DNA from: Nitrospirota bacterium
GTDB lineage: Bacteria > Nitrospirota > Thermodesulfovibrionia > Thermodesulfovibrionales > SM23-35
Direction of reading: 5' to 3'
Length of the DNA: 59,026 nt
Assembly (NCBI GenBank): GCA_013388435.1
Contig: JACAFE010000069.1
Location: 1-59,026 of the forward strand
A program made the translations under genes and the position numbers. Shown here one piece after another: positions 33,849 through 42,053 of the stretch (position 1 is its first letter; the number at the start of each line of letters is the position of its first letter). The notes beneath the pieces were generated by a model. The model saw only the letters and a program-made list of their open reading frames with translations. It did not search any database and had not been told where the DNA came from.

Positions 33849-33922
33849 TTAACCCAGATAATGCAGACATTGCTCAAAAATTTATTTTATCCGAATTATT
33901 TCAGTTGCATTTTCCGGGTTAA
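33849..33922. repeat. 74-bp imperfect inverted repeat at the end of the response regulator gene
   Basis: The left arm TTAACCCAGATAATGCA (33849-33865) and right arm TGCATTTTCCGGGTTAA (33906-33922) pair at 15 of 17 positions. The right arm includes the stop codon of the sigma-54 response regulator gene. The middle is AT-rich. The left half recurs at 14507-14547, and TTAACC-ended repeats are also seen at 56413-56476 and, as single ends, near 4835 and 11481. It may be a small dispersed element that also serves as a terminator hairpin. Confidence 0.55.
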
Positions 33923-35280
33923 TCAGATTCAAGTCCGTACTTTTTTAATTTTCTCCATAGAGAGACACGGTCTATGCCGAGCATTTGAGCTGCGAGAGTT
34001 TTGCTATTATTGACCTCTTTAAGCACCCACTGTATATATGCTTTTTCCTGTTCATCCAGAGAAGGAATTTTACCATCTTTTTTTCTGAAAGTTTTTATAC
34101 TGATTACCTTAAGATCCTCCGGTAAATGTTCGATACTTAATATGTTGCCAGTACATAGGGCAACTCCTCTTTCAATAATATTTTCCAGTTCTCTAACATT
34201 TCCCGGGAAATCATACTCCTGCAAGATTGCTATTACATCGGATGAAATTTCCTTTATATCTTTTTTCATCACAGCATTATATTTTTTTAAAAAATGATAA
34301 CAGAGTATTGGTATATCATCTCTTCGTTCTGATAAAGGAGGTATATTCAATGATACAACATTTATTCTGAAGTACAAATCTTCTCTAAAATCTCCATTTT
34401 TTATAGATTTGCTAATATCTCTGTTTGTTGCGGCTATAAATCTGACATCAACTTTAATGGGTATTGTGCCACCTACTCTTAAAACTTCTTTTTCCTGAAT
34501 TACCCTTAAAAGTTTTACCTGCATCGAAGGTGGCATTTCAGTTATTTCATCAAGAAAAAGGGTGCCGCCTGATGCCATTTCTACCAACCCTTTTTTCATT
34601 GTCAATGCACCAGTAAATGCACCTCTTTCATGGCCGAACAATTCGCTTGATAAAAGTTCTTCTGTGAAAGCCCCACAATTTACAGCAAAAAAAGGACCTT
34701 CGGCACGCTTGCTGTTAAAGTGCACATATTTTGCAAAAAGTTCTTTTCCTGTCCCGCTTTCTCCTGTTAGTAAGATATTGCAGTCTGTTGGCGAGATCTG
34801 TTTTGCTGTTTCCATTAATCTCTGCATTGCCATGTTCTGGGTTATTATTTTTACCTTTCCCTGAAAACTTTCAATCTGCTCTCTTAATTCTTTGTTTTCT
34901 TTTTTTAGCTTTACCTTTTCAACAGCCTCTTTAACTATATTTCTAACCAGGTCGAGTTTAAAAGGTTTGGCGATATAATGGAAAGCTCCTTTTTTCATTG
35001 CATCAACAGCGGATTCTAATGTTGCATATCCTGTAATAAGAATTACCTCAGAATCAGGATGTTCGTTACGGCATTTTTCAAGTATTTGAAGTCCGTCAAC
35101 TTTTTCCATTCTTAGGTCAGTCAAAATAACATCGAATTTCTGCTCTTCGAGCAATCTAAGAGCAGAAATTCCACTACTTGTCCCAGTGACATCATAACCT
35201 TCTTTTTTCAGAATGTGCTCGAGATTTTTTACCGCAATTTTTTCATCATCAACTACCAGTATTTTAATTTCATTCAGCAT
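33919..35280 (-). CDS. Sigma-54-dependent response regulator (NtrC type)
   Basis: The 453-residue activator has a receiver domain (1-120; acidic pocket D11-D12, phosphoacceptor D55, Lys in IAKPF), a sigma-54 AAA+ domain (about 145-380) with LLTGESGTGKE (Walker A), the sigma-54-contact loop GAFTGA and GGTLFLDEI (Walker B), and a C-terminal Fis-type helix-turn-helix ending AAQMLGIDRVSLWRKLKKYG. When phosphorylated it should bind enhancer-like sites and drive sigma-54 RNA polymerase. Its start codon overlaps the kinase stop (TAATG). Its receiver is about 60% identical by eye to the receiver inside the neighbouring Lon protein, so the same kinase probably serves both. Likely targets are the promoters at 38.8-39.2 kb. 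Confidence 0.95.
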   Translation of the reverse strand: MLNEIKILVVDDEKIAVKNLEHILKKEGYDVTGTSSGISALRLLEEQKFDVILTDLRMEKVDGLQILEKCRNEHPDSEVILITGYATLESAVDAMKKGAFHYIAKPFKLDLVRNIVKEAVEKVKLKKENKELREQIESFQGKVKIITQNMAMQRLMETAKQISPTDCNILLTGESGTGKELFAKYVHFNSKRAEGPFFAVNCGAFTEELLSSELFGHERGAFTGALTMKKGLVEMASGGTLFLDEITEMPPSMQVKLLRVIQEKEVLRVGGTIPIKVDVRFIAATNRDISKSIKNGDFREDLYFRINVVSLNIPPLSERRDDIPILCYHFLKKYNAVMKKDIKEISSDVIAILQEYDFPGNVRELENIIERGVALCTGNILSIEHLPEDLKVISIKTFRKKDGKIPSLDEQEKAYIQWVLKEVNNSKTLAAQMLGIDRVSLWRKLKKYGLESD

Positions 35281-36791
35281 TAGATTTGCTCCCTTACAGG
35301 AAACCTTATTAGAAAGGTTGTTCCTTTCCCGATTTCACTACAAACTCCTATACAGCCATCATGTTCATGTATAATTTCCTGAACAATATAGAGGCCGAGA
35401 CCAACTCCTTTCCCGACTTCCTTTGTAGTAAAGAAAGGGTCGAAAATTTTCGGTAATATGTCAGGTGAGATTCCGTTTCCTGTATCCCTAATTTCTATAT
35501 TGATTGTGTCGGTTTTTATTGGACATTCACCTGTACAATTACCCTGTTCTTTTGTATAGTCACAAAGTTCATCAATATTGCTTTTTAAAATATGTTTATA
35601 TGCTTTTATTGAAACAGTACCTTCATTATCAATAGATTCTATTGCATTTTTAATCAGGTTTAAAAATGCCTGCTGAATTCTCTGTTTATCAGCGAAAACA
35701 GTGATTTCATCCGGCACATCTATATTAACTGTGATTCTTGTAGGTATTTCTCCTTTTAATAATTGTTTTGTTTCTTCTATGATTTTACTTAATTGTAAAT
35801 ATTCCCTTTTGAATTTTTTATCCCTTGAAAATTCAAGTAAAGATTTCACAATATTTTTGGCCTTGTCTGTTTGTTCATCAATCTGGGATAATAGTTCTTT
35901 TTTGAATTTATCGTCAATATCATCAAACTCTTCAATTAATATCTGACAGGATGAAGATATGTTTGATAAGGGATTATTTAACTCATGTGCAACACCGGAT
36001 ATAAGTGTACCGAGTGAGGCAAGTTTTTCACTCTGTACAAGATGTTTTTGTCGTAAATCAAGCTCATAAAGCATTTTGTTGAAAGCCTGTGTCAGGGATA
36101 TAAGCTCTCTATCCTTCGAAATATTTGTTATTTTTTTTAATTTTCCTTTAGAAATTTCATCCATCATTGTTTCAATATTCTTTAATGGTTTAACAATCAT
36201 TCTTGATAGTATCTGTCCGACGACTATACCGATTATCGAAAATGATAGTATAGAGATAATAATAAATTTTCTGATTGTGTTGAGCATAACCTGAATTCTG
36301 AGTCGCTCAACTTTTGAGATGTTTTCAGCAAAATTTATTATTTCTTTGCCTTTCTCCCTTATAGCATTTTCGACTAAACTCAATCTTTTATCGTCTTCTG
36401 TGTTTCTCAGTATGGAAAATTGTTTCATCAATAAACGATATTGATTTAGATTATCTTTTAATTTATCTACATCAACCGAGATAGTAAGATTTTTATAGTC
36501 TTTTGAATTTTTGTTTAAAATGTCCAGGGCTTTTTCTAAGTACAAAATAGTTTCATTGTAGTCTTCAATCTTTTTGTATAAAAAGAAATTCTTTTCAAAC
36601 CTTCTCATTTCGAGGGTTGCATCAAAAAATTCTGTTACAATTTCTCCAAAGTGTATTTTTTTTTCAATATACCAGAGTTCAACTAAAGTGAAAATAGAAA
36701 GGCCAATGATAGCTATTATTCCTAAAAAATAGCCCAATGTAATTTTTCGTCTTATGCTTGGATAATATAAAAACATGAATTTAAATATCAC
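35280..36791 (-). CDS. Membrane sensor histidine kinase with cysteine-rich ATPase domain
   Basis: Order of parts in 503 residues: transmembrane helix 1 (about 19-41), an extracytoplasmic all-helical sensor region (42-172), helix 2 (174-193), HAMP (194-247), HisKA with H269 in SGVAHELNNPLSN, and HATPase with N-box NLIKNAIES, G1 DTGNGI and G2 GKGVGLGLYIV. The ATPase domain carries a short insert with C410, C419 and C423 (C-x8-C-x3-C) plus C480 and C484 near the end, which is unusual and could bind a metal or sense redox state. It lies between the Lon-receiver gene (6-base gap) and the response regulator (1-base overlap). The first codon is GTG; ATG five codons later is an alternative start. Confidence 0.93.
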   Translation of the reverse strand: MIFKFMFLYYPSIRRKITLGYFLGIIAIIGLSIFTLVELWYIEKKIHFGEIVTEFFDATLEMRRFEKNFFLYKKIEDYNETILYLEKALDILNKNSKDYKNLTISVDVDKLKDNLNQYRLLMKQFSILRNTEDDKRLSLVENAIREKGKEIINFAENISKVERLRIQVMLNTIRKFIIISILSFSIIGIVVGQILSRMIVKPLKNIETMMDEISKGKLKKITNISKDRELISLTQAFNKMLYELDLRQKHLVQSEKLASLGTLISGVAHELNNPLSNISSSCQILIEEFDDIDDKFKKELLSQIDEQTDKAKNIVKSLLEFSRDKKFKREYLQLSKIIEETKQLLKGEIPTRITVNIDVPDEITVFADKQRIQQAFLNLIKNAIESIDNEGTVSIKAYKHILKSNIDELCDYTKEQGNCTGECPIKTDTINIEIRDTGNGISPDILPKIFDPFFTTKEVGKGVGLGLYIVQEIIHEHDGCIGVCSEIGKGTTFLIRFPVREQI

Positions 36792-36797
36792 GATTCA

Positions 36798-38807
36798 CTA
36801 TACAAACAGTTTGCTAATTATATCTTCAATTCTATCAGTTAAGATTATTTCAAGTCCTTTAATTACCTCAGGACCCAGGTTTTCAATATCTACCTTATTC
36901 TTAGATGGTAATATAATTGTTTTCACTCCAGCCCTGCGGGCAGCGAGTATTTTTTCTTTTATTCCTCCAACCGGTAAAATTCTACCGCTTAAAGTTAATT
37001 CTCCAGAAACCGCTACATCTCTTTTGGCTGGTCTGCCTGTGAAGAGCGATATAAGAGAAGCAGCTATGGTTACCCCTGCAGAAGGCCCGTCTTTAGGTAT
37101 TGCACCAGCAGGGATATGAATGTGAATATCATAGCCTTCAAGAATATTTTCGCTAATATTGAATGATGATGCATTACTTCTGATATAGCTTAACGCAGCT
37201 TGTGCTGATTCTCTCATTATATTTCCAAGTGAACCTGTAAGTATTAAATTGCCCTGTCCTTTCATGCGGGCAGATTCTATAAAAATAATTTCTCCGCCTG
37301 TTTCCATCCAAACAAGTCCGGTAACTACCCCTATCCTGTTATTTTCGTCAGCAACTTCGATAAAATATTTTCTTGGACCGAGATATCTTTCTACTAATTC
37401 CGGAGTAATATTAATAAGCCTGATAGATTCTTTATGATATACAAATTCAGTAGCTATCTTTCTGCATATATTGGATATCTGTCTTTCAAGGTTTCTTGTC
37501 CCGGCTTCCCTTGTATAATCATTTATTATCTTAGATACGGCTTCAGCAGAAAAAGTTGGTGGGTAGTCAGATAATCCCTGTTCCCTTATTTGTTTGGGTA
37601 TTAAATGAAAAAGTGCGATATTGATTTTTTCGTCTTCTGTATATCCTGAAAATTCTATAATTTCCATGCGATCTTTTAAAGGTCCTTGAATGTTTTCGGC
37701 AATATTTGCGGTAGCTATAAACATTACATTGGATAAGTCAAATGGGACATCAAGGTAATGATCAAGAAAATTCTGATTCTGTTCAGGATCGAGAACTTCA
37801 AGAAGTGCTGATTCCGGGTCGCCTTTAAAATCCTGCCCTCCAATTTTATCAACTTCATCAAGCATAATTACAGGATTTAAAGATTCTGCTCTGCGGATTT
37901 CTTCTATAATACGTCCAGGCATAGCGCCTGCATATGTTCTTCTATGTCCTCTGATTTCAGCCTCGTCTTTCATTCCGCCAACAGAAATTCTGGCAAATTT
38001 TCTTGCGAGAGCGTCTGCAATAGATTTGCCAATAGATGTTTTTCCTGTGCCTGGTGGCCCTGTAAAACAAAGAACAGAACCTTTTGTAGATATTGTTGAT
38101 AATTTTTTATTAAGTGCCTGTCTTACAATTGAGCGAACTTCATCGAGTCTGAAGGGCTTCGCAATATAATGAAAAGCGCCTCTTTTTATAGCCTGAATAG
38201 CCGAATCTACTGCAGCATAAGCAGTTATCATTATTACCTGTATGTCAGGATATTTGTTTTTTACTTTTTCAAGAAGAACAAGACCATCAATCTTTTCCAT
38301 CTTTAGATCAGTAAGCACTACATCAAATGAGCTAATATTTAGTTTTTCAATAGCTTCAACCCCGTTTGATGCTGTGATAACATCATAATTTTCCTTCTTA
38401 AGAATATGTTCAATATTATTGCGTGCAATCTCTTCATCGTCGACAACGAGTATCCGGGGTTTTTTATTCATGACAAGTACCTTAACAGCAAGATGTTCTA
38501 ATATTCTTTCTTTAACGTCATTTAAACCATAATGTCTCTCATTCAGGATTTTCCTGGCCTGATTTAAATCAAGGTTATCAGGAGTTTTTCTGTCCCACGG
38601 AAGACTGACAAGATAATCTATATATGAAAGGCTTATAGTATATTCAGCAGATGCAGGACTCATTTTGGACATTATTTCGAGTTCTCTTTCAGCGATTCGT
38701 TTTACGTTCTCGGGCATATTCGCTGAATTTATTTTTTGCCTGAAGTCATTTAGGATTGTAATTTGCTGATTGTCTTCAGTTTTTTTAAATATATTCATTA
38801 TCGGCAT
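36798..38807 (-). CDS. Lon-type ATP-dependent protease with an inserted response-regulator receiver domain
   Basis: The 669-residue protein lacks the Lon N-terminal substrate domain and begins at the helical region (MPENVKRIAERELEIM, SPASAEYT, YIDYLVSLPW). After HYGLNDVKERILEHLAV (93-108) a full receiver domain is inserted (about 116-235; D123-D124, phosphoacceptor D167, T195, K217), and Lon then resumes at GPPGTGKTS (250-258) with Walker B IMLDEVD, sensor N368 and the Ser-Lys protease dyad S576 (PKDGPSAG) and K619 (GGIKEK). All catalytic residues are intact, so phosphorylation may switch a working protease. It heads an operon with the kinase and sigma-54 regulator, behind a sigma-54-type promoter. 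ATG 38798 has the better-spaced AAGG and may be the true start. Confidence 0.93.
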   Translation of the reverse strand: MPIMNIFKKTEDNQQITILNDFRQKINSANMPENVKRIAERELEIMSKMSPASAEYTISLSYIDYLVSLPWDRKTPDNLDLNQARKILNERHYGLNDVKERILEHLAVKVLVMNKKPRILVVDDEEIARNNIEHILKKENYDVITASNGVEAIEKLNISSFDVVLTDLKMEKIDGLVLLEKVKNKYPDIQVIMITAYAAVDSAIQAIKRGAFHYIAKPFRLDEVRSIVRQALNKKLSTISTKGSVLCFTGPPGTGKTSIGKSIADALARKFARISVGGMKDEAEIRGHRRTYAGAMPGRIIEEIRRAESLNPVIMLDEVDKIGGQDFKGDPESALLEVLDPEQNQNFLDHYLDVPFDLSNVMFIATANIAENIQGPLKDRMEIIEFSGYTEDEKINIALFHLIPKQIREQGLSDYPPTFSAEAVSKIINDYTREAGTRNLERQISNICRKIATEFVYHKESIRLINITPELVERYLGPRKYFIEVADENNRIGVVTGLVWMETGGEIIFIESARMKGQGNLILTGSLGNIMRESAQAALSYIRSNASSFNISENILEGYDIHIHIPAGAIPKDGPSAGVTIAASLISLFTGRPAKRDVAVSGELTLSGRILPVGGIKEKILAARRAGVKTIILPSKNKVDIENLGPEVIKGLEIILTDRIEDIISKLFV

Positions 38808-38852
38808 ACCTTATTTATAATTGTCTCTACAATACTATCGAAAATAATACTC

Positions 38853-38867
38853 GCAAATATTATACCA
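38853..38867 (-). promoter_or_regulatory. Sigma-54-type promoter (-24/-12) for the Lon-receiver operon
   Basis: On the minus strand the sequence TGGTATAATATTTGC gives the -24 TGG and -12 TTGC elements with exactly 10 bases between GG and GC, close to the consensus TGGCAYRN4TTGC. Transcription would start about 12 bases on, near 38842, leaving a leader of roughly 35-45 bases before the Lon start codon. The operon it would drive contains its own sigma-54 activator, suggesting autoregulation. Confidence 0.65.
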
Positions 38868-39001
38868 TCCATAAAAATAGTGCTTTTTTAAGCAGATGAT
38901 TACTATCTATATATAATTCGTCATTAATAAATAAAAAAAATAAAAGGTTTGAACGAAATTTGATTACATATATAAATTAACATTATTCCAGGGAACATGC
39001 T

Positions 39002-39020
39002 TTGTTGCATTATACAACAA
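39002..39020. promoter_or_regulatory. Palindromic activator site 1 (enhancer-like)
   Basis: TTGTTGCATTATACAACAA is a 19-bp palindrome with 8 of 9 pairs matched. Its 15-bp core GTTGCATTATACAAC has the same form as site 2 at 39091-39105. The centre is about 145 bases upstream of the leftward -24 element and 170 bases upstream of the rightward candidate, distances typical of NtrC-type enhancers. Confidence 0.6.
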
Positions 39021-39090: not shown

Positions 39091-39105
39091 GTTGCATATT
39101 GCAAC
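39091..39105. promoter_or_regulatory. Palindromic activator site 2 (enhancer-like)
   Basis: GTTGCATATTGCAAC has two perfect 6-base arms around TAT. It shares GTTGCAT at the left and CAAC at the right with site 1, 87 bases away. It is about 230 bases from the leftward -24 element and about 85 bases from the rightward candidate promoter, so one pair of sites could serve both operons. Confidence 0.62.
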
Positions 39106-39182
39106 AGTGTTAATAATAACATTTCAGTTTCTAAAACAATTTTTATTTGATAAATCAACAAGTTATTACTGTTTTACATCCA

Positions 39183-39196
39183 GGCATGATAATTGA
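39183..39196 (+). promoter_or_regulatory. Weak candidate sigma-54 promoter for the stress/permease operon
   Basis: GGCATGATAATTGA keeps the -24 GG and a -12 TTG with the correct 10-base spacing, but the -12 position reads GA instead of GC and the base before GG is A instead of T. Transcription would start near 39207, leaving about 33 bases before ATG 39240 with its ribosome site in between. It is the only GG-containing candidate between site 2 and the gene. Confidence 0.35.
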
Positions 39197-39239
39197 GATA
39201 AAGATTTCGTACAAAAGAAAATTACGGAGACTTTCAGAA

Positions 39240-40073
39240 ATGGAAATAAAGAAATTAGTACAGCAATTTGAGGATTTAATGTCAACTTCATTTCTTGAAG
39301 AAGGCAAACTGGAAACTCTGAAAAGAATGGTGAATAACCGTCACAGAATTCTTCTTGTTTTAACCGGAATGGAAGTTGATATGGATGCAGTAAACTATTC
39401 GTTAAACCTTAGCAGACGTATTGGAGCTGGAATTAAAATTTTATATCTAACCAGAGATATCTCAGAACTCCCATATATAGATAATTCTCTTAACAAATTA
39501 AAATCGGCAGGAATAAGTTATCAAATTAAAGTTTGTAACAGTTCTGTAAAAGAAGAAATTGTTAGTTACATTAATAATGATGAAAAAGAAACAGATATTA
39601 GTTTTGTAGTAATAGATTCGAGGGATCTGGGAATTCGCTCGCTGAGGAGTCAGAAAGCAGATTATCATGATTGGGAAAAATTGAGATGCCCTCTGGTTCT
39701 GGTATCTAAAACACCCAAATTTATTTCACTAAAGAGGAGGATGGTTATGACACAAAATTATGTTAGTATGAGGAAAAAGCCGATCGGCAAAATGGTAATT
39801 TATGGGTTGGCTTCTGTTGCAATGTACGCAGCATTACTTATGAATCAAGCAACTATTACATCTCTATTTACAAGAGGAGCATGGTATGCGTTATTTCCTA
39901 TAGCGACAGCTTTTGCTATTTCTTTTGTACACGGACATTTCACAGGGTATTTCTGGTCTGTCTTAGGTGTAGAAGCAACTAAAAAGGCTTTGCGTACAGG
40001 AACACAAGAGCAAAAACATACCGAAAAAAGAGAACGTCCACAGCCTCAACCACGGTTGAGAGCAAAATTATAA
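39240..40073 (+). CDS. Universal-stress-like domain fused to a two-helix membrane segment
   Basis: The 277-residue product begins with about 165 residues of USP-like alpha/beta fold (HRILLVLTGMEVDMDAVNYS; ISFVVIDSRDLG; RCPLVLVSKTP) lacking the GxxGx9GS ATP motif, followed by a membrane part: GKMVIYGLASVAMYAALLMN (about 184-203) and a second helix around WYALFPIATAFAISFV. The tail is basic and Pro/Gln-rich. I start at ATG 39240 because GGAGA lies nine bases upstream; an earlier TTG at 39147 would overlap the candidate promoter. A strong internal ribosome site in frame at 39734 may also yield the membrane part alone. It precedes the permease by 17 bases and is likely its partner. Confidence 0.75.
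   Translation: MEIKKLVQQFEDLMSTSFLEEGKLETLKRMVNNRHRILLVLTGMEVDMDAVNYSLNLSRRIGAGIKILYLTRDISELPYIDNSLNKLKSAGISYQIKVCNSSVKEEIVSYINNDEKETDISFVVIDSRDLGIRSLRSQKADYHDWEKLRCPLVLVSKTPKFISLKRRMVMTQNYVSMRKKPIGKMVIYGLASVAMYAALLMNQATITSLFTRGAWYALFPIATAFAISFVHGHFTGYFWSVLGVEATKKALRTGTQEQKHTEKRERPQPQPRLRAKL
39734..39749 (+). promoter_or_regulatory. Internal in-frame Shine-Dalgarno and start codon
   Basis: GAGGAGG at 39734-39740 is followed by ATG 39747 six bases later, in the same frame as the fused gene. The site stands exactly at the junction between the USP-like and membrane parts, and would produce a membrane protein of 108 residues starting MTQNYVSMRKKPIGK. A ribosome site this strong inside a coding region suggests a second product or a recent fusion of two genes. 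Confidence 0.55.
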
Positions 40074-40090: not shown

Positions 40091-41179
40091 ATGCAAAATA
40101 TAGCATTAGAAGCATCAAATTTTATAGATTTAAACTCTATGAATATACTTTATCTTTTTATTGTTGGGTTTATTGGCGGACTCGTTAGCGGTTTTATAGG
40201 TTCCGGTGGTGCATTTGTACTTACACCCGGTATGATGAGTCTTGGAGTACCGGGACTTGTTGCTGTAGCCAGCAATATGTGCCATAAATTTCCCAAGGCT
40301 TTAGTTGGAGCTATTAAACGTGCGAAGTACGGTCAGGTTGATGTTAAACTCGGTATAATTTTTGGCATATTTGCTGAAGCAGGTGTATTCTATGGAGCTC
40401 ATATTCAGGAAAGAATCAAGTCTGCCTTTGGCGATGCAGGTTCTAATTTGTATGTAAGCGTTGCATTTGTAGTAGTTCTCGCTATAGTGGGCGGTTTTGT
40501 ATTACGAGATGCAATAAAAACTTATAGATCAGGTAATACAAGTGCAGAAGAAAAAACAGCAAAATTAGCAAAATGGGTACAATCAATCAATATACCAGGT
40601 ACAATGGTTTACTTTAAGAGTTTGAATGCAAGAGTTTCCATACTTTTCCTGATACCGCTTGGTTTTGGAACTGGTATGCTTGCGGCAACCATTGCAGTTG
40701 GAGGTTTTCTTGGTGTTCCTTCAATGATTTATGTTCTTGGGGCCCCCAGCCTTATGGCTTCAGCATCAGAATTGGTTGTTGCTTTTGTAATGGGTCTTGG
40801 CGGTTCATTTAAATATGCTCTCCACGGGCTTGTTGATATCAGATTGTCAGCAATTATACTTGCGGGTTCACTTTTCGGAATTCAATTGGGCGCAATTGGT
40901 ACAACTTATGTAAAACCATTTATGATAAAATTAGTTATGGGTGTTATAATGGTTATAGTACTTTTTAGCAGAGCATTGATGGTACCTGTATATCTTTCAC
41001 AACTTGGTATAATCCAGACACTTACGGAGACAACCATAAAAATTCTAAAGAATAGCAGTTTTGCCATAATGGCATTTGCACTATTGTCAGGCGCTTTTAT
41101 TATATTAAGAGCTATGTGGATTGGTAAAAAGGCTGAACGTGCAATCGAAGAAAAAGAAGAAGCAATTGAAAATGTTTAA
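40091..41179 (+). CDS. TauE/SafE-family permease (sulfite exporter-like)
   Basis: The 362-residue membrane protein has about eight or nine helices in two homologous halves; each half opens with the family signature: GFIGGLVSGFIGSGGAFVLTP near residue 30 and GFGTGMLAATIAVGGFLGVP near residue 197. TauE/SafE proteins move sulfite, sulfoacetate, other small organic anions or thiosulfate; the substrate here cannot be told. SD AGGAGG precedes the ATG. The gene sits between the USP-membrane fusion and a tandem UspA, in an operon opposite the Lon-receiver/kinase operon. A charged loop (about 150-175) and a Glu-rich tail face the cytoplasm and could meet the stress proteins. Confidence 0.88.
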   Translation: MQNIALEASNFIDLNSMNILYLFIVGFIGGLVSGFIGSGGAFVLTPGMMSLGVPGLVAVASNMCHKFPKALVGAIKRAKYGQVDVKLGIIFGIFAEAGVFYGAHIQERIKSAFGDAGSNLYVSVAFVVVLAIVGGFVLRDAIKTYRSGNTSAEEKTAKLAKWVQSINIPGTMVYFKSLNARVSILFLIPLGFGTGMLAATIAVGGFLGVPSMIYVLGAPSLMASASELVVAFVMGLGGSFKYALHGLVDIRLSAIILAGSLFGIQLGAIGTTYVKPFMIKLVMGVIMVIVLFSRALMVPVYLSQLGIIQTLTETTIKILKNSSFAIMAFALLSGAFIILRAMWIGKKAERAIEEKEEAIENV

Positions 41180-41198: not shown

Positions 41199-42053
41199 AT
41201 GAATATTTATAGAAAAATACTCATAGCAATTGATGGTTCTAAAACGAGTATGCATGCCTTGAAGGAGTTTGTTAATTTCTCAAAGTCGTATAACCCTGAT
41301 ATTACTATTATTTCTGTCATTCCTCCTTATGATGGAGACCTCAATGCATTGTGGGTTGACAATATAGATAGTTCTATAAAAAGACAATGTGATACAGCAC
41401 TTTCGGATGCTTTAAAAATAGCTAAAGATGCAGATGTATCTGTCAGTGCAGTTTGTGAAGAAGGAGAAATACACGAAAGAATTGTTGATTTTGCAGATTC
41501 AGGGAATTATGACCTGATTGTAATGGGCAAAAAAGGAATGAGCTTGATCGAGAAAGCTTTTGTTGGTAGTGTTACTTCAAGAGTAATTGGCTATAGCAGG
41601 CAGGATGTTCTTGTTATACCTTTTGAATCAAAACTTTCATGGGATAATATACTTATAGCAACAGACGGGTCGGCATATAGTGAAGTTGCTGCGATGAGGG
41701 CAATAGAGATTGCCAGGAAATATAAAAGTAAAATTAAAATTCTATCTGTTGTTGATGTAACTGTGGAATTTATGATACGCGCCCAGGAAGTATATAATAG
41801 CCTTGTAGAAAAGGCGAAAGATATTACTAACGATATAAAAGCCCGGGCTTTTTCACTTGGTGTTGGCGCTGAACCAGTTGTTAGGGATGGTGAAGTACAT
41901 AGAGTAATTCTCGATGTTGCCAATGAATATAAGATAAACATGATTGTTATGGGACGTCTTGGAAAATCAGGCATTAAACGATTATTGATGGGTAGCACTA
42001 CCGAAAGAGTTCTCGGACACACCACTTGCCCGGTTTTAATTGTTAAGCCATAG
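41199..42053 (+). CDS. Tandem universal stress protein (UspA family)
   Basis: Two UspA domains make up the 284 residues. The first (about 1-145) starts YRKILIAIDGSKTSMHALKE and contains GKKGMSLIEKAFVGSVT; the second (about 148-284) starts WDNILIATDGSAYSEVAAMR and contains GRLGKSGIKRLLMGSTT. Both have the G-x2-G-x9-G-[ST] ATP-binding pattern, so both halves probably bind ATP, unlike the USP part of the upstream fusion. E. coli-type USPs respond to starvation and oxidative or respiratory stress. The gene closes the operon; GAGGATGG precedes the start, and a strong hairpin follows the stop. Confidence 0.93.
   Translation: MNIYRKILIAIDGSKTSMHALKEFVNFSKSYNPDITIISVIPPYDGDLNALWVDNIDSSIKRQCDTALSDALKIAKDADVSVSAVCEEGEIHERIVDFADSGNYDLIVMGKKGMSLIEKAFVGSVTSRVIGYSRQDVLVIPFESKLSWDNILIATDGSAYSEVAAMRAIEIARKYKSKIKILSVVDVTVEFMIRAQEVYNSLVEKAKDITNDIKARAFSLGVGAEPVVRDGEVHRVILDVANEYKINMIVMGRLGKSGIKRLLMGSTTERVLGHTTCPVLIVKP

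Follow-up and report, generated by a model that had tools for sequence, protein, structure and literature searches.

Our analysis shows that the gene at positions 36798..38807 (minus strand, ATG at 38807) of the 59,026-nucleotide stretch of DNA studied here (the window) encodes a 669-residue Lon-derived protein, REC-Lon, in which a response-regulator receiver domain is inserted just ahead of the ATPase. Conservation and gene context lend good support both to this architecture and to the idea of a protease controlled by phosphorylation. We consider it likely that REC-Lon is one arm of a branched two-component (three-protein) system, in which a single kinase would serve two receivers with transcription and proteolysis as their outputs, and phosphorylation of D167 would gate Lon. 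The receiver-Lon architecture and the main hypothesis have already been published, and the window protein is a further member of that family. What we add is the kinship of the Lon receiver with that of its partner regulator, the docking helix common to the two, and a geometry of dyads and sigma54-like elements that recurs in two phyla.

A Lon protease with a receiver domain inserted before its ATPase

Pfam recognised four domains in REC-Lon, namely Response_reg (PF00072) at residues 119-228 (E 2e-29), AAA at 246-387, Lon_lid at 409-459 and Lon_C at 467-668 (E 9e-80), and the NCBIfam model TIGR00763 'lon' scored 734 bits (cut-off 608) in a match split in two stretches. Comparison with LonA structures in the PDB by phmmer assigned residues 22-112 (38472..38744, minus strand) to the N-terminal helical region and residues 238-668 (36804..38096, minus strand) to the AAA+ ATPase, lid and S16 protease, this second match starting just before the Walker A motif (250-257). 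The receiver and its linker, with the phospho-acceptor D167, occupy residues 116-238 (38094..38462, minus strand). In an AlphaFold2 model built with the family alignment (pLDDT 82, pTM 0.70), residues 118-236 fold into the clean five-fold beta-alpha unit of a receiver, preceded by the final helix of the helical region (96-114) and followed by the strand that opens the ATPase (245). Foldseek matched this model to LonA chains through the parts before and after the insert; for several chains the TM score, by target length, was 0.86-0.90.

The residues on which both activities depend are intact. REC-Lon has the features of a LonA protease (MEROPS S16), with Walker A and B (DE317/318), an aromatic pore loop (Tyr292), Arg380 and Arg438 at the arginine-finger and sensor-2 positions and the S576/K619 Ser-Lys dyad, and it has those of a response regulator, with two acidic residues, the phospho-acceptor Asp, T/S and K. 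The original prediction, made from the sequence of the window, was correct in coordinates, strand and length; its helical region (residues 30-108) turned out to be slightly longer, and the five receiver residues it listed (D123, D124, D167, T195 and K217) were all verified, as were those behind its statement that Lon resumes at Walker A with an intact dyad. It had also noted the absence of the N-terminal substrate-binding domain. Indeed, Pfam found no LON N-domain (PF02190) in REC-Lon, and the open frame has only 670 codons, which makes an N-domain in frame upstream impossible. A profile search of the genome for PF02190 found no stand-alone N-domain; its sole match was a separate canonical Lon of 818 residues. 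Since the substrate-binding LON domain is missing, REC-Lon is best called a Lon-derived protein and not a full LonA.

A family of apparently single origin in two phyla

Full-length receiver-Lon matches were found in 37 of 296 Nitrospirota genomes, at 880-1460 bits and separated by a clear gap from the ordinary Lons of these genomes, which score at most 602 bits, and in 13 of 118 genomes of a second, Desulfobacterota-type phylum. Because every complete member in the two phyla carries the same ungapped 120-residue insert at the same position, REC-Lon is the product of neither chance nor an assembly fusion. The receiver signature DDD-(T/S)-K is conserved in all complete members, position 195 being T or S, and so are Walker A and B, the pore-loop Tyr, the arginine-finger and sensor-2 arginines and the Ser-Lys dyad, S576 and K619 being invariant in 46 sequences; members of different phyla are 53-60% identical. 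In a tree built on the Lon columns only, with the receiver excluded and a small outgroup of 11 canonical Lons, a branch supported at 99% has the receiver-Lons on one side, where they divide by phylum. The simplest reading of this topology is one fusion event followed by long and stable inheritance, and the family thus appears to have a single origin.

Matches of about 525 residues in Desulfuromonadales, considered as short Lons without a receiver, proved to be full-length canonical Lons and were rejected as such. Four receiver-Lon genes look damaged, either as pseudogenes or through sequencing errors: a stretch including Walker A is missing from one (L053), and the frames of the others (L054, L078 and L081) are truncated or split. 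We also rejected a link to sulfate reduction based on co-occurrence. About 33 of the 37 receiver-Lon Nitrospirota genomes have dsrA (split in one of them), but the gene is also present in many genomes without a receiver-Lon, the distribution tracks phylogeny, and in the genome of the window itself no dsrA match exceeds the cut-off. That genome's closest relative, of the same genus, has a full copy, which points to a loss or an assembly gap.

Linkage to a histidine kinase and an NtrC-family regulator

A membrane histidine kinase (35280..36791, minus strand; HAMP-HisKA-HATPase by Pfam) is encoded 6 bp downstream of Lon on the same strand and is a conserved neighbour. The end of its gene is overlapped by 1 bp by the gene for an NtrC-family regulator (33919..35280, minus strand; REC-sigma54 activation-Fis by Pfam) in which the GAFTGA loop is present. 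The linkage of Lon with such a pair occurs in many members of both phyla in varied arrangements: the pair is downstream of Lon at nine loci, divergent from it at three and convergent with it at ten, and in some relatives it lies farther away, beyond a transporter operon. That the linkage has been kept despite repeated rearrangement argues that Lon, kinase and regulator are a functional unit. While the original prediction was right about the architecture of REC-Lon, it omitted this pair and the promoter architecture described below, which hold most of the functional information.

The receiver of the partner regulator is the closest to that of Lon among the 58 receiver matches in the genome, with 59-61% identity compared to 48% for the next. 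Lon and partner receivers also cluster in a receiver tree, with 16 further receivers from the genome (the best non-partner matches) falling outside; the support is modest, on few columns, at 86/83 (98/86 with two further rows). The alpha-1 helix of response regulators docks on the kinase. It is in this helix that the contrast is larger than elsewhere in the domain, Lon and partner receivers being 57% identical here compared to 20% with the 16 others; the corresponding values are 64% and 47% for the core strands, and, against unrelated receivers, 49% and 23% for alpha-5 and 54% and 46% for alpha-4, which forms part of the usual dimer face. This close kinship and the unusually similar docking helix suggest that a single kinase probably serves both receivers. 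Among 14 genomes picked mainly because the regulator does not adjoin Lon, its orthologue is clear in 11 and partial in one, and in two (L032 and L040) none stands out; the latter two count against a branched system.

Predicted regulatory DNA in front of the Usp/permease operon

Divergent from Lon, on the plus strand, is an operon encoding a Usp-like protein fused to a small membrane segment (39240..40073), a TauE/SafE-family anion permease (40091..41179; PF01925) and a tandem universal stress protein (41199..42053; two stretches of PF00582). The intergenic region common to Lon and this operon contains two GTTGCAnnnTGCAAC-like dyads, GTTGCATTATACAAC at 39004..39018 and GTTGCATATTGCAAC at 39091..39105, which are predicted binding sites of the regulator and lie 178 and 91 bp upstream of the -24 element of a sigma54-like -24/-12 element (AGGCATGATAATTGAG, 39182..39197, plus strand) directed to the operon. 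Its orientation and its spacing from the dyads are the same in relatives. The pattern GTTGYANNNTRCAAC has only one further occurrence in the 2.15-Mb genome, within an apparent formate dehydrogenase coding region. The 93 regions upstream of receiver-Lons, some of which are duplicate records, contain a looser form of the dyad, GTTG-N7-CAAC, 30 times against 0.38 expected, and none of 26 regions preceding canonical lon genes contains it; this form also came first when all 4- and 5-base dyads were searched without guidance.

The strict sigma54 consensus TGGCAC-N5-TTGCW, with up to two mismatches, had no match in the window's intergenic region, where a weight-matrix scan was likewise not significant, and the element became recognisable only once a -12 box of the variant form TTGA/TTGT had been seen in relatives. 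Of 80 regions, 33 have a sigma54-like element directed away from Lon, where 0.18 would be expected, a ratio that is optimistic in that the variant -12 box was picked after the relatives had been inspected; only one element is directed towards Lon. In the window, as in most loci having both, the dyads stand about 91 and 178-184 bp upstream of the element; these distances recur in both phyla and are as expected if the dyads are binding sites for a sigma54 activator. Dyads and element in front of the operon lead us to predict that the NtrC-family regulator controls it via sigma54.

The open reading frame of the Usp-like gene was called from a TTG at 39147, and its true start is probably the ATG at 39240, which is downstream of the sigma54-like element and suits the promoter better. 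The Usp-like domain and the small membrane segment, together in one gene in the window (39147-40073, plus strand), are encoded by two genes in relatives, three other loci being examples. In Desulfobacterota, the permease of the target operon is often a CitMHS/SLC13-type protein. Nine Nitrospirota loci have TTGA or TTGT in place of TTGC in the -12 box and differ in this from most Desulfobacterota loci. On the minus strand, TGGTATAAT at about 38850-38875 may be an extended -10 (sigma70) promoter facing the Lon operon, in which case Lon, kinase and regulator could be transcribed independently of sigma54.

Relation to known systems

The DVU3303-DVU3304-DVU3305 three-component system of Desulfovibrio vulgaris was reported in 2011 (PMC3333781). 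The original prediction had held that, to its knowledge, the function of such architectures is not described; it was overtaken by this report, in which the authors already suggested that protease activity may need phosphorylation, and by a mutant phenotype published in 2023 (PMC10102598). The targets of DVU3305 are its own operon and DVU3302-3298 (PMC3333781), and a 2015 study of sigma54 lists the same targets (PMC4641369). Orthologues of the DVU3305-type regulator were found in other species, including Thermodesulfovibrio yellowstonii, mostly with a lon-type partner (PMC3333781). In the 2023 mutant screen, cofitness among DVU3303, DVU3304 and DVU3305 was above 0.9 and all three were detrimental in chlorate; the putative anion transporter DVU3299 is a target of the system, and the chlorate phenotype of this target permease gene is opposite to that of the signalling genes (PMC10102598), indicating that the logic in D. 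vulgaris is more than simple activation. The gene for lon is apparently the first of the D. vulgaris operon, so that the cofitness may be polar and is weak evidence.

The window resembles this system closely, the orthology of DVU3303 to REC-Lon resting on the papers' descriptions (PMC3333781, PMC10102598). In both, a Lon-containing response regulator, a histidine kinase and an NtrC-type regulator are encoded together (33919-38807 in the window). Each set has beside it an operon, known to be regulated in D. vulgaris and predicted to be so in the window, whose products are UspA-domain proteins and membrane proteins with a putative anion transporter among them. The window differs in having a TauE/SafE permease, Usp and small membrane segment in one gene, and TTGA as the -12 box. 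Our literature searches on receiver plus Lon found no biochemical study of any receiver-Lon member.

Compared to canonical LonA (E. coli and B. subtilis Lon; TIGR00763), REC-Lon has the same helical region, AAA+ module, lid and S16 Ser-Lys protease with all catalytic residues, but lacks the N-terminal substrate-binding domain and has a receiver before the first ATPase strand. RssB and CpdR are receiver proteins that act as separate adaptors controlling ClpXP. They too govern an AAA+ protease, whereas in REC-Lon receiver and protease form one chain, and that protease is Lon, not ClpXP. The placing of a receiver directly before an AAA+ ring recalls sigma54 activators of the NtrC/NtrC1 type, whose type of receiver Lon shares, but the output of REC-Lon would be proteolysis and its AAA+ module is that of Lon, not a sigma54-activation domain.

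Proposed mechanism and alternatives

We propose that two related receivers, one in the NtrC-type regulator and the other in Lon, take their phosphoryl groups from the membrane histidine kinase. The phosphorylated regulator would turn on the divergent Usp/anion-permease operon through sigma54, while phosphorylation of D167 would alter the receiver, placed as it is in the short link from the helical region to the ATPase's opening strand, and this would change the assembly or the ATPase and proteolytic activity of the Lon ring. The original prediction had likewise suggested that phosphorylation could gate hexamer assembly, ATPase or substrate entry, with the receiver taking over from the lost N domain as control point. 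The sequence basis of this model is the anatomy of REC-Lon, its intact catalytic and phosphorylation residues, the single origin, the linkage, the receiver kinship and the operator and promoter geometry, from which we infer phosphotransfer to Lon and gating. That phosphorylation activates the protease, and that the receiver is placed on the entry side of the ring, are guesses to which we lean slightly in each case. We know of no biochemically characterised protease that is switched in cis by phosphorylation of a built-in receiver. On balance, we favour the reading that REC-Lon is such a case, a processive AAA+ protease switched directly by Asp phosphorylation, with one sensor kinase driving transcription and proteolysis in parallel.

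The receiver could instead be a docking site or a phosphate sink. As a docking site, the phosphorylated Lon receiver would pair with that of the NtrC partner and bring the regulator for degradation or processing, standing in as a recruiter of substrate for the lost N-domain. That the two are sister domains alike on alpha-5, and that the N-domain, which normally aids substrate recognition, is absent from REC-Lon with no stand-alone copy in the genome, would fit this idea, but alpha-4, part of the dimer face, is barely more alike than in unrelated receivers. Under such feedback, lon and regulator mutants should also have opposite phenotypes; the phenotypes seen in D. vulgaris are alike, although polarity could explain this; we regard it as unlikely. 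A Lon receiver that merely competes for phosphoryl groups and so tunes the regulator, beside a constitutive protease part, seems quite improbable to us: the common docking helix would permit the competition, but a stand-alone receiver would suffice for it, and the ungapped receiver-protease fusion in all complete members of two phyla would be left unexplained. The like phenotypes of the three D. vulgaris mutants weakly favour a Lon acting in the direction of the regulator over negative feedback or a sink. Hardly credible is a vestigial or purely structural receiver in a constitutive second Lon; the canonical 818-residue Lon of the same genome could leave the REC-Lon copy free to drift, yet members of different phyla, at 53-60% identity, all retain the five phosphorylation positions (T/S at 195).

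If the receiver gates Lon, as in the branched system that we prefer, a housekeeping protease would have been converted into a dedicated signalling output, placing transcription and protein destruction under one kinase. It would provide a natural phospho-switched AAA+ protease as a model for engineering one, and a function for a system of many sulfur-cycle bacteria that is linked with universal stress proteins and anion permeases and, in its D. vulgaris version, with chlorate sensitivity. The ATP-binding domain of the window's kinase (35280-36791) has a cysteine-rich insert, CDYTKEQGNCTGECP, between its N and G1 boxes, which is absent in the Desulfobacterota loci, partly lost at three other loci and kept in three close relatives, and which is possibly a metal or redox sensor.
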